Positions 8,426 to 31,522 of a stretch of DNA of 46,583 nt are shown here, one piece after another. The stretch comes from Bacillota bacterium (GTDB lineage: Bacteria; Bacillota; Desulfitobacteriia; Desulfitobacteriales; Desulfitobacteriaceae), in the NCBI GenBank assembly GCA_021811425.1, contig JAJZPA010000003.1:1-46583 (forward strand), written 5' to 3'. Below the pieces are notes generated by a model, which worked only from the letters and a program-made list of their open reading frames with translations, was not told the DNA's origin and did no database searches. The position numbers and the translations under genes are program-made. Numbering within the stretch: the first letter of the stretch is position 1; each line of letters starts with the position of its first letter.

Positions 8426-8516
8426 ATACCTGTCAGAAAGTATAAGTCTGTGGAGGATAAGAAAACTTGCGTCGCCGCCGTCGCCAAAGGCTCGGCGCCA
8501 GCCGAGTTTTCTTTAA
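8421..8516 (+). repeat. Interspersed ~90-bp repeat, copy A
   Basis: The unit starts TATACCTGTCAGAAAGTATA (a short TATAC/GTATA dyad) and contains GTGGAGGATAAGAAAAC. It ends in a CTCGGC-GCCA-GCCGAG hairpin followed by TTTTCTTT. The outer AAGAAAACT and AGTTTTCTT are inverted. It is nearly identical to copy B (31431-31522) and related to copies C (16520-16595) and D (15220-15260, reverse). It sits just upstream of the ArAE gene and leaves a spurious open frame joined to it. Confidence 0.8.
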
Positions 8517-12796: not shown

Positions 12797-13615
12797 ATGA
12801 GCAAGGTCGGCAAGTTGTTCCTTTTCGCCATAAAGGGAATGGCTAGGAAACGGGAAGGACAATCAAAACGTGACATGCAGGAAAAGGAGCGGGTAGAAAA
12901 GCCGGAGACAGAGTATCTCTTGGGGCAAGCCCTGTTGGCTGTGAAGATGCGCTTCAAGCCGCTCCTTTATTTTACGCTGACGGTAGCCGGGGTTTTTCTC
13001 TATGGCTTTGCAGTAACTGAGTATGCAGAAGATCTATGGCTATACGGGATTGTCGGCTCCATCAGTGCACTGGCATCACTTGGCCTCTTAGGATGGCGAA
13101 GGGTTGCGCTGAAAAAGGCAGAAGAGAAGGTTGTCCTATATAAACGCGCGTTGGAAGAAGAGAAACAGCAAAAGCAAAAGCAAAAGCAAGAGAAAGACAT
13201 TGCATCTAAACAGCCGTCAGAACTTTTTTACCTTGATTTGAATGCCCTGAGCAGTGAACAGTTCGAGGACGTGGTCAAGGATCTTGTCGTACGCATGGGA
13301 TTTGTGGCCGAAAAAACCCAGCCTTCACATGATGGTGGAATTGACATCTGGGCCTACAGTGACAATGCGCTGAACGGGGGGCGTTATATTATCCAGTGCA
13401 AACGCTGGAGTTCCACGGTGCCGGTCGAGATTGTCCGGGATTTGTACGGGACGCTCATGCGGGAGAAGGCCGATGGGGGGATACTCATCACGACGAGCGA
13501 CATTTCCAGTGACGGACAGAAGTTCATCTCCGAGGCAGCACATAATATTCCGATTAAGCTGATCGGCGGAGCACAGCTTAGGAGCTTGCTAAATGAGCGG
13601 GAGATGGCGAAGTAA
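12797..13615 (+). CDS. Membrane-anchored Mrr-type restriction endonuclease-like protein
   Basis: A 272-residue protein. After a basic N-terminus come two hydrophobic segments (about 56-75 and 80-100) and a charged Lys/Gln coiled coil (about 110-140). The C-terminal Mrr_cat domain (about 150-270) starts LSSEQFEDVVKDLVVRMGF. It contains the PD-(D/E)xK core as GGIDIW and IIQCKRW and ends PIKLIGGAQLRSLL. Mrr-like nucleases cut modified or foreign DNA, but membrane-anchored versions of unknown role are common in Firmicutes. The start ATG follows AGGGGGAC. No methyltransferase is nearby. Confidence 0.82.
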   Translation: MSKVGKLFLFAIKGMARKREGQSKRDMQEKERVEKPETEYLLGQALLAVKMRFKPLLYFTLTVAGVFLYGFAVTEYAEDLWLYGIVGSISALASLGLLGWRRVALKKAEEKVVLYKRALEEEKQQKQKQKQEKDIASKQPSELFYLDLNALSSEQFEDVVKDLVVRMGFVAEKTQPSHDGGIDIWAYSDNALNGGRYIIQCKRWSSTVPVEIVRDLYGTLMREKADGGILITTSDISSDGQKFISEAAHNIPIKLIGGAQLRSLLNEREMAK

Positions 13616-15219: not shown

Positions 15220-15260
15220 TAAAGAAAACTTGGCTGGCGCCAAGCCTTACGGCGCTTTGC
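15220..15260 (-). repeat. Interspersed repeat, copy D (partial, reverse orientation)
   Basis: On the minus strand this reads GGCTTGGCGCCAGCCAAG followed by TTTTCTTT, the terminal hairpin of the copy A repeat with a compensatory C-G to T-A change in the stem. Only the hairpin end of the element is present. It abuts the GGA-loop hairpin array. Confidence 0.6.
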
Positions 15261-15559
15261 CATCCGGCATCCAGCCATCCATGGCGATGCTCTAATCTCA
15301 AACGTCCTGTTTGAGTCATGGCAGCGCTCTAATCTCAAACGTCCTGTTTGAGTCGGCGGCGAAGGCGGCCGCCAAGTTGCACTTATGCCACCCAAAATTA
15401 CTTTCTGAAGGGTATCATAAAGGCCGGGTACTGCGACCCGGCCTTTACGTTACCCTTCAATTTCGTTTGGACAGCGCTGCACTAGGCACCTCCTGTGCCG
15501 TCGGCAGCGCTCAATGTCCATCCGGGACAGCGCTGCACTAGGCACCTCCTGTGCCGTCG
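15252..15559 (-). repeat. Modular array of small hairpins with GGA in every minus-strand loop
   Basis: Six units each start with an AGCGCT-like hexamer and continue into a hairpin whose loop contains TCC on the plus strand. Stem pairs are TGCC/GGCA (15258-15269), CTCAAAC/GTTTGAG (15297-15315 and 15334-15352), GGCAC/GTGCC (15485-15499 and 15541-15555) and TGTCC/GGACA (15515-15529). Two 29-bp and two 34-bp direct repeats lie within (15289-15317 and 15326-15354; 15470-15503 and 15526-15559). The stems differ while the loops are conserved, which points to RNA structure. An extra hairpin GCCAT/ATGGC is at about 15274-15285. Confidence 0.65.
15408..15457. terminator. Two-tier hairpin, likely bidirectional terminator
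   Basis: An inner 11-bp stem (15419-15429 with 15436-15446) is nested in an outer 7-bp stem (15408-15414 with 15451-15457). The A/T ends of the inner stem can serve either strand. It lies between two convergent genes, inside the hairpin array. Confidence 0.55.
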
Positions 15560-16488
15560 CCTTGGGGATGGTCGATTGGCACATCCGCGATCTCTGGGTA
15601 GGCTTGGATTTGCAGTTTCGGTTGGGTTACGTGATGCAGTAGCTTGTTGCCCAACAACAGTACTGCGATCAAGAATAAGATGATCCACGTTGTGGCGAGA
15701 AGATAGAAAGCTGCTTTGAATTCGATGAAGATGTGGGGAATTAGAAGCATTTTGACGAGACCTCCAATTGGGTGTGTAAGCAAGAATATTCCGCTAACGA
15801 GCAGGGGTTGGTGGATAAGGTAAATCGCTAACGAGTGTTTGCTAAGGCTTTCGACAAGCCGACCCAAACGGCTCGGTGGAATGAGCGTCCTTTTTTCTCC
15901 CTCAGTATCAGGTTTATATTCCGTCGCCAAGTGTTCATAGTATTTGAAAAAGAGGACTCCCAGTATGGTTGCGGAAAGATAGGGAAAAAGGGGATAGTAG
16001 TCGATTGAGCTAAACTCGCGGTAGGTCAATCCGAAAGGGAGGAGCCAGGTAGGGGAGACAGTTGTACGGAGTGCCGCCCAATACCCACCTGCGCCTATTC
16101 CGCTGGCGATGAAAAGGAGAAGCAGAGGTGGTAGACGTAAAAGATAAGGGGAGAGGAGCATGCCCATTCCGAGTAAATGTAAAATGCCAAAGCGAACAAA
16201 CTCATCTGGCATCCATAAATAAGTCACGAGGGTAATCACCCCTCCCCAGGCCAAAACCTGAAGTCCGCGCTTCAAGGGGTTTTTGCTCAGTCCAGCGGAA
16301 AAGCCAGAAAGGATGATAAAGAGGAGGGCGGAGGCTTTACCGATACTGAACCATAGTGGATGATGGTAATCTATAGGGACGTGAGCATACTCCTTGAGAT
16401 CATAAGCCATATGGTAGAGAATCATCAGTAGGATGGCTGAGGCTCGTAACCTGTCGATCCATGGCAGGCGTGGCAGACGCTTTGGCAT
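15538..16488 (-). CDS. DUF1624 / heparan-alpha-glucosaminide N-acetyltransferase-like membrane protein
   Basis: Starting at 16488 (MPKRLPRLPWIDRLRA, with AAGGAG just upstream), the protein has 316 residues and about eight transmembrane helices. The N-terminal IDRLRASAILLMILYHMAYD carries the conserved Arg and His of the HGSNAT catalytic family, and LFIILSGFSAGLS follows. SLAIYLIHQPLLV near residue 240 resembles acyltransferase-3 proteins. It probably moves acetyl or other acyl groups across the membrane onto glycans. The last codons and the stop (DGTGGA-stop) come from a unit of the hairpin array, so the native C-terminus appears replaced. The longer frame up to 16563 runs through repeat copy C and is not used. 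Confidence 0.78.
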   Translation of the reverse strand: MPKRLPRLPWIDRLRASAILLMILYHMAYDLKEYAHVPIDYHHPLWFSIGKASALLFIILSGFSAGLSKNPLKRGLQVLAWGGVITLVTYLWMPDEFVRFGILHLLGMGMLLSPYLLRLPPLLLLFIASGIGAGGYWAALRTTVSPTWLLPFGLTYREFSSIDYYPLFPYLSATILGVLFFKYYEHLATEYKPDTEGEKRTLIPPSRLGRLVESLSKHSLAIYLIHQPLLVSGIFLLTHPIGGLVKMLLIPHIFIEFKAAFYLLATTWIILFLIAVLLLGNKLLHHVTQPKLQIQAYPEIADVPIDHPQGDGTGGA

Positions 16489-16519
16489 AGTGGCTCCTTG
16501 ATTTTGACAAATTCCTTGT

Positions 16520-16595
16520 TTATACCAGTCGGAAAGTATATCTTTGTGGTGGCATAAATGCAACTAAGGCTTCCGCCTGCGCTGAGTTTTCTTTA
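16520..16595 (+). repeat. Interspersed repeat, copy C (degenerate)
   Basis: It begins TATACCAGTCGGAAAGTATA and ends GCTGAGTTTTCTTTACC, matching both ends of copy A, but has lost part of the GC-rich centre. The opening dyad TATAC/GTATA is kept. It lies just upstream of the DUF1624 gene. Confidence 0.6.
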
Positions 16596-31430: not shown

Positions 31431-31522
31431 TTTATCCTGTCAGAAAGTATAAGTTTGTGGAGGATAAGAAAACTTGCGTTGCCGCCGTCGCCAAAGGCTC
31501 GGCGCCAGCCGGGTTTTCTTTA
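31431..31522 (+). repeat. Interspersed ~90-bp repeat, copy B
   Basis: Nearly identical to copy A over the segment CAGAAAGTATAAGT through the GCCA-loop hairpin and TTTTCTTT. The hairpin stem is CTCGGC/GCCGGG here, with a U-G wobble replacing a U-A pair. It lies between divergently placed genes, upstream of the SQR-like gene. Confidence 0.8.

Follow-up and report, generated by a model that had tools for sequence, protein, structure and literature searches.

Small palindromic repeats are common, and their loops are usually taken as unimportant. The REP elements of the GTAG and CGTC families have been surveyed in a text that does not mention Firmicutes (PMC3733652). Loops that present GGA are recognised by the RNA regulator CsrA, whose SELEX consensus is RUACARGGAUGU, displayed in a six-base loop that is closed at the base by AC pairing with GU (PMC7652899). 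In Firmicutes, FliW is the known antagonist of CsrA, and fliW is anti-correlated with BarA-UvrY, the driver of the Csr small RNAs (PMC7652899).

The window (the whole 46.6 kb stretch of DNA analysed) displayed an array of GGA-loop hairpins on the minus strand of the 15252-15559 region, with five C-(A)NGGAN-G hairpins having stems of at least 4 bp and two weaker GGA-loop hairpins (Table 1). With the count restricted to C-(A)NGGAN-G loops on a stem of four or more Watson-Crick pairs, 2000 dinucleotide shuffles of the region gave a mean of 0.01 such hairpins and a maximum of 1, none of the shuffles (0/2000) reaching 5. Over the whole window, 5 were found on the minus strand, all of them in this region, and 1 on the plus strand, where shuffles gave about 1 for each strand. 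The array of hairpins is real and beyond chance. All six units listed by the sequence-only reading were recovered where it had placed them, each with GGA in its minus-strand loop, and a seventh of the same structure had been overlooked (plus-strand GCC-ATCCAT-GGC at 15274-15285, minus-strand GCC-ATGGAT-GGC). Our first hairpin census, limited to arms of at least 6, overlooked hp2.

The array consisted of two separate things, clusters A and B (the latter at 15485-15558). On the minus strand, cluster A ran from the head AGAAAGTAATTTTGGGTGG through GCATAAGTGCAACTTGGC and two tandem hp1 modules (CTCAAACAGGACGTTTGAG ATTAGAGC...) to hp2 and the end CTTGGCGCCAGCCAAG TTTTCTTTA, the sequence of hp1 being CUCAAACAGGACGUUUGAG and that of hp2 GCCAUGGAUGGC. 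The terminal inverted repeats of cluster A were imperfect (24-nt arms, 75% complementary). One module was common to both clusters, GAC-stem-AC(N)GGANGT-stem'-(RTT)TAG, and the stems found in this GAC...TAG frame included TCGA, TCAA, TCGG, TTAA, GGC, GAC and GGA; cluster B is built of the same module as cluster A, with another stem.

Table 1. Features of the window that bear on the repeat, with their positions and strands
Feature	Position	Strand	Remarks
Scaffold copy without GGA modules	8427-8515	+	Ends in terminator-like stem and TTTTCTTTA
Cluster A, one composite mobile element (scaffold, two hp1 modules and hp2)	15220-15414	-	Ends uncertain by a few bases
Scaffold end CTTGGCGCCAGCCAAG TTTTCTTTA of cluster A	15220-15244	-	Terminator-like; imperfect inverted repeat of 15364-15387
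Unit TGCC-ATCC-GGCA (plus-strand letters)	15258-15269		Minus strand TGCC-GGAT-GGCA; minor hairpin of cluster A
hp2, GCATC GCC-ATGGAT-GGC TG GATGC	15267-15290	-	Loop C-ANGGAN-G
hp1 module copy 2, CTCAAAC-AGGAC-GTTTGAG	15297-15315	-	37-bp tandem spacing from copy 1
hp1 module copy 1, CTCAAAC-AGGAC-GTTTGAG	15334-15352	-	Plus strand CTCAAAC-GTCCT-GTTTGAG
Terminator-like hairpin separating clusters A and B	15406-15459		Corresponds in congener G001 to the native terminator of the plus-strand gene upstream
Cluster B module 1, GAC-GGCAC-AGGAG-GTGCC then TAGTG	15485-15502	-	Plus strand GGCAC-CTCCT-GTGCC, 15485-15499
Cluster B middle hairpin TGTCC-CGGAT-GGACA	15515-15529	-	Between AGCGCT palindromes; plus strand TGTCC-ATCCG-GGACA
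HGSNAT_cat acyltransferase-like ORF	15538-16563	-	Pfam PF07786, E 1.6e-53; upstream of clusters A and B on the GGA strand
Cluster B module 2, GAC-GGCAC-AGGAG-GTGCC	15541-15558	-	HGSNAT-like ORF stops at its TAG; plus strand GGCAC-CTCCT-GTGCC, 15541-15555
Scaffold copy without GGA modules	31433-31522	+	Empty site in congener G001; ends in terminator-like stem and TTTTCTTTA

Both clusters were located downstream of the HGSNAT-like gene on its own strand, and the GGA strand is probably transcribed here, downstream of that gene. No sigma-70-like promoter site was found adjoining the clusters. Cluster B supplied the last codons and the stop of the HGSNAT-like ORF (15538-15560, tail GDGTGGA*), and the protein of congener G001 ends otherwise; the repeat may have remodelled the C-terminus of the HGSNAT-like protein. 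The window also encoded an Mrr-type restriction endonuclease (12797-13615; Pfam Mrr_cat, E 1.5e-28).

The repeat was dispersed in the window's own genome (G000) and unevenly distributed among relatives. BLAST located it at about 30 places in G000, with one, two or three tandem 37-bp units, and arrays elsewhere reached 8 GGA hairpins. A covariance model built from hp1 and hp2 and run over 46 genomes of the family matched in 28 of them, with 42 matches in G000, 13 in congener G001, 0 to 45 in Desulfosporosinus and almost none elsewhere, all of these being counts of copies that are kin by descent and duplication and not of independent events. Searching the exact pattern over 84,980 species genomes yielded 60 loci, of which 59 lay on Desulfosporosinus-named contigs and one on a contig whose sole label is 'Bacillota bacterium'. 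On this distribution, the window is assigned to Desulfosporosinus or the genus that is sister to it. No copy was present in six Desulfosporosinus genomes that are near-complete and encode CsrA (G006, G022, G028, G029, G031 and G032). The scaffold without GGA modules was as widely dispersed as the module-bearing copies. Homologues of the repeat on plasmids and phages were looked for and none was found, and a literature search limited to open-licence papers returned no account of these repeats.

Many G000 contigs started or stopped in or near the repeat (C10, C39, C124, C128, C133, C141, C144, C165 and C208), which therefore probably causes breaks in the G000 assembly. Several copies carried an extra hairpin module, CGAAGACACTGTCTTCGCACGTATTAGCCTTCTTGCAG, inserted in or beside hp2 and resulting in nested hairpins (L092:1258-1340, L093 and L112). 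Other inserts, such as GATCGTCCCACCGGGACGATC and AACATCCCACCGGGATGTT, were present in the scaffold copies L076, L081 and L064, with varying stems and a constant CCCACCGGG core; these inserts are a possible second loop-constant family.

Comparison with congener G001 displayed empty sites for two of the insertions in the window. The site orthologous to that of cluster A read TTCAT[AAAGAAAAC...GGGTAT]CATAAAGGCC in the window and TTCATCATAAGGGCC in G001, where the upstream plus-strand gene was directly followed by its own terminator (TTCATCATAAGGGCCGG...CCGGCCCTTATG); in the window, all of cluster A lay between those two halves. The scaffold at 31433-31522 was missing in G001 too, the sequence being uninterrupted through TTTTTTCTTTATTGTAAGCC. 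Both insertions adjoined a gene's terminator, and the two empty sites showed no agreement on a target-site duplication. In another genome (G043), a composite lay immediately before the conserved promoter of an MtaB-like gene. Congeners with a readable stretch upstream of this gene did not display it there, two short contigs having given within-gene sequence. No insertion sequence bounded by scaffold ends was present in the loci examined. The sole candidate for a transposon bounded in this way (L160) was discarded, as its ends resemble two separate small elements, and no mobilising enzyme was identified for the repeat. Short, non-coding and multi-copy, with its insertion documented by empty sites, the repeat is MITE-like in these respects.

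Short palindromes that are dispersed and arranged in arrays could also be REP elements of a RAYT or IS200-type Y1 transposase, and Y1 transposases were present in five of the six genomes checked. The modules did not flank the Y1 genes, however, and G025 harbored 10 copies and no Y1 gene, two observations on which a Y1/RAYT linkage was rejected. The GTAG/CGTC tag of such elements (PMC3733652) was absent as well, the frame here being GAC...TAG, and this origin appears very doubtful.

The sequence of the stems was free as long as they remained paired, while the loop was held to A-N-GGA-N. Among 88 distinct aligned copies, 96.8% of the pair cells were standard, 13 of the 15 pairs had changed on both sides, and double-change cells numbered 93 (26 in shuffles), values biased in favour of the structure to which this alignment was fitted; sliding the partner by one base reduced pairing to about 40%, and a smaller MAFFT-aligned set gave similar results. 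Stems had been described as covarying from the window alone, where they are merely different; the covariation is real across related genomes. Near arrays, the hp2 loop was A-N-GGA-Y in nearly all copies, the bases varying at positions 2 (T, A or C) and 6 (T or C). The hp1 loops were AGGAC, AGGAT, AAGGAT and AAGGAC, with some rarer variants. Loops with GGA amounted to 84 of 346 on the GGA strand, 10 of 343 on the opposite one and 19 of 648 in random regions; since the pattern used to draw several loci has a fixed hp1 loop, the claims on the loop rest mainly on hp2 and the other stems. With its dispersed copies, empty sites, covarying stems and constrained loop, the locus bears out the suggestion of a REP-like repeat with a protein-binding loop. 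Ordinary REP elements scattered with random loops had been named as the outcome that would count against the sequence-only reading: the copies are indeed scattered, but their loops are not random.

On the GGA strand, G-U to A-C counts were 15:6 in hp2 (hand-anchored, p 0.08), leaning towards RNA, and 7:8 in hp1. The alignment to the covariance model gave 43:19, part of which probably arises from misaligned GACACC/GGTGTC variants. The asymmetry is not decisive and was rejected as a strand test.

The loops of the repeat closely fitted the published CsrA rule (ACAAGGATGT, ACAGGACGT and C-ANGGAT-G), so that CsrA binding would be expected where the GGA strand is transcribed, and binding to transcribed copies is plausible. 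CsrA was encoded in 33 of 41 relatives, including congener G001, where it is intact, and every Desulfosporosinus genome tested; it was not found in G000, which is 84% complete. The four CsrA sequences read all kept the arginine that is in line with the one binding RNA in E. coli CsrA, and a FliW-like ORF was found beside csrA in G027. Several csrA-like genes were clustered in some genomes (G025:C6:115102-115915, G031:C21, G034:C12 and G039:C13), and in G034 and G039 a single ORF (144-150 aa) contained two CsrA domains. An Rfam scan at the gathering threshold returned nothing; the best match by E-value was RsmY (18.9 bits for a gathering threshold of 57, E 0.019).

The strand of the modules relative to genes differed between genera. 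The GGA strand was antisense to both neighbours 24 times and sense 7 times in Desulfosporosinus (p 0.003), and sense 10 times and antisense 3 times in the window's genus (p 0.02-0.09, small sample), these calls resting on ORF length, with Pfam confirming 10 neighbours only. Modules were flipped relative to the scaffold, the two lying on opposite strands in all 21 scoreable cases of the window's genus, whereas 23 of the 27 Desulfosporosinus cases had both on one strand; within one array, all modules pointed in the same direction. The scaffold itself kept a constant orientation to genes in both genera. This consistency with upstream genes, the landing of copies by native terminators and a scaffold end made of a stem and TTTTCTTT would suit terminators or mRNA-end stabilisers that spread as gene insulators, with a loop that has no partner. 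Such an origin is conceivable but doubtful, as it leaves the constrained GGA loop and the flip of the modules unexplained.

Among antisense copies, 30 of 35 had an intact GGA in hp2, and among sense copies 10 of 12. A loop under selection only for CsrA-RNA binding would be expected to decay in antisense copies, and such selection is therefore unlikely. The same observation weighs on the other proposal of the sequence-only reading, a Csr-type decoy. Its GGA strand would be transcribed, either as an RNA or within a 3' UTR, and the loops would titrate CsrA as in CsrB or RsmY. The match to the SELEX consensus and to the AC/GU-closed six-base loop (PMC7652899), the weak RsmY match, the intact CsrA of G001 and Desulfosporosinus with FliW adjoining in G027, the mostly sense GGA strand in the window's genus and the terminator-like hairpin ending cluster A are consistent with this proposal. 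However, the copies are mobile, dispersed and patchy, being absent from the six near-complete CsrA-bearing genomes, and the GGA strand is mostly antisense in Desulfosporosinus and yet keeps GGA. The clusters lack a promoter-like site beside them and a match at the Rfam threshold, CsrA was not found in the 84%-complete G000, hp1 stems exceed the four or fewer pairs favoured in SELEX, and the antagonist of CsrA in Firmicutes is FliW, its gene being anti-correlated with BarA-UvrY (PMC7652899). Given the patchiness, the antisense bias and the GGA kept in both orientations, a dedicated Csr decoy RNA is unlikely, and little credence is given to it here; what stands of the initial interpretation is the REP-like repeat.

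CsrA could be involved in other ways. In the window's genus, mobile repeats may later have been adopted as CsrA sites in the 3' UTRs of certain genes, whose mRNAs would then bind CsrA. This tentative possibility is in line with the loop match, the sense bias of 10 to 3 and the position of clusters A and B, both downstream of the HGSNAT-like gene and on the strand that encodes it; however, the loop was as well conserved in antisense copies, and the sense bias comes from a small sample (p 0.02-0.09). It appears improbable that transposable modules place CsrA-binding loops in the transcripts of dozens of genes across Desulfosporosinus and the sister genus, where they would act together as a dispersed sponge or make up a CsrA regulon that mobile DNA has seeded.

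Cluster A likely belongs to a composite mobile DNA repeat of the REP/MITE-like kind, found in Desulfosporosinus and its sister genus, with a loop read by some protein. A scaffold whose inverted ends are imperfect, one end resembling an intrinsic terminator, inserts into intergenic DNA, and hairpin modules in or beside it expand in tandem. A protein would read the paired stem together with the GGA/TCC loop, most likely on single-stranded or extruded DNA during the spread of the modules, since the constraint on the loop is independent of the direction of neighbouring genes. Capture by CsrA would be secondary and limited to places where the GGA strand is transcribed. Against this explanation, the DNA-reading protein needing ANGGAN is a hypothetical one, while CsrA is a known protein with a gene in most relatives; the close match of the loop to its rule therefore requires co-option or coincidence.

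Stems vary freely here around a loop held at six positions, which fits the recognition rule of a global RNA regulator, and they do so in Firmicutes, where CsrA is thought to be under the control of FliW and not of a decoy RNA. Either a hairpin-reading protein spreads the modules, or mobile DNA scatters CsrA sites. GGA-loop arrays spotted by eye are not per se Csr small RNAs, and should be read with this warning in mind.

Compared with described systems, the repeat shares serial hairpins with CsrA-consensus GGA loops with the decoy RNAs CsrB, CsrC, RsmY and RsmZ, but it forms scattered mobile copies instead of one conserved gene, with a GGA strand that is often antisense, no promoter of its own found and a score below the Rfam threshold. 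Like the REP elements of the GTAG and CGTC families (PMC3733652), it is a small intergenic palindrome with varying stems, arranged in arrays and mosaics and uneven between species; unlike them, it has neither the GTAG/CGTC tag nor RAYT linkage, and its modules keep one direction per array. MITEs and composite intergenic repeats of the RU and BIME type are likewise short, non-coding and dispersed, with inverted ends (imperfect in the repeat), patchy copy numbers and empty sites. Unlike them, the repeat carries hairpin modules that are nested, grow in tandem and retain a single loop motif, and neither a parent transposase nor a target duplication was found for it.
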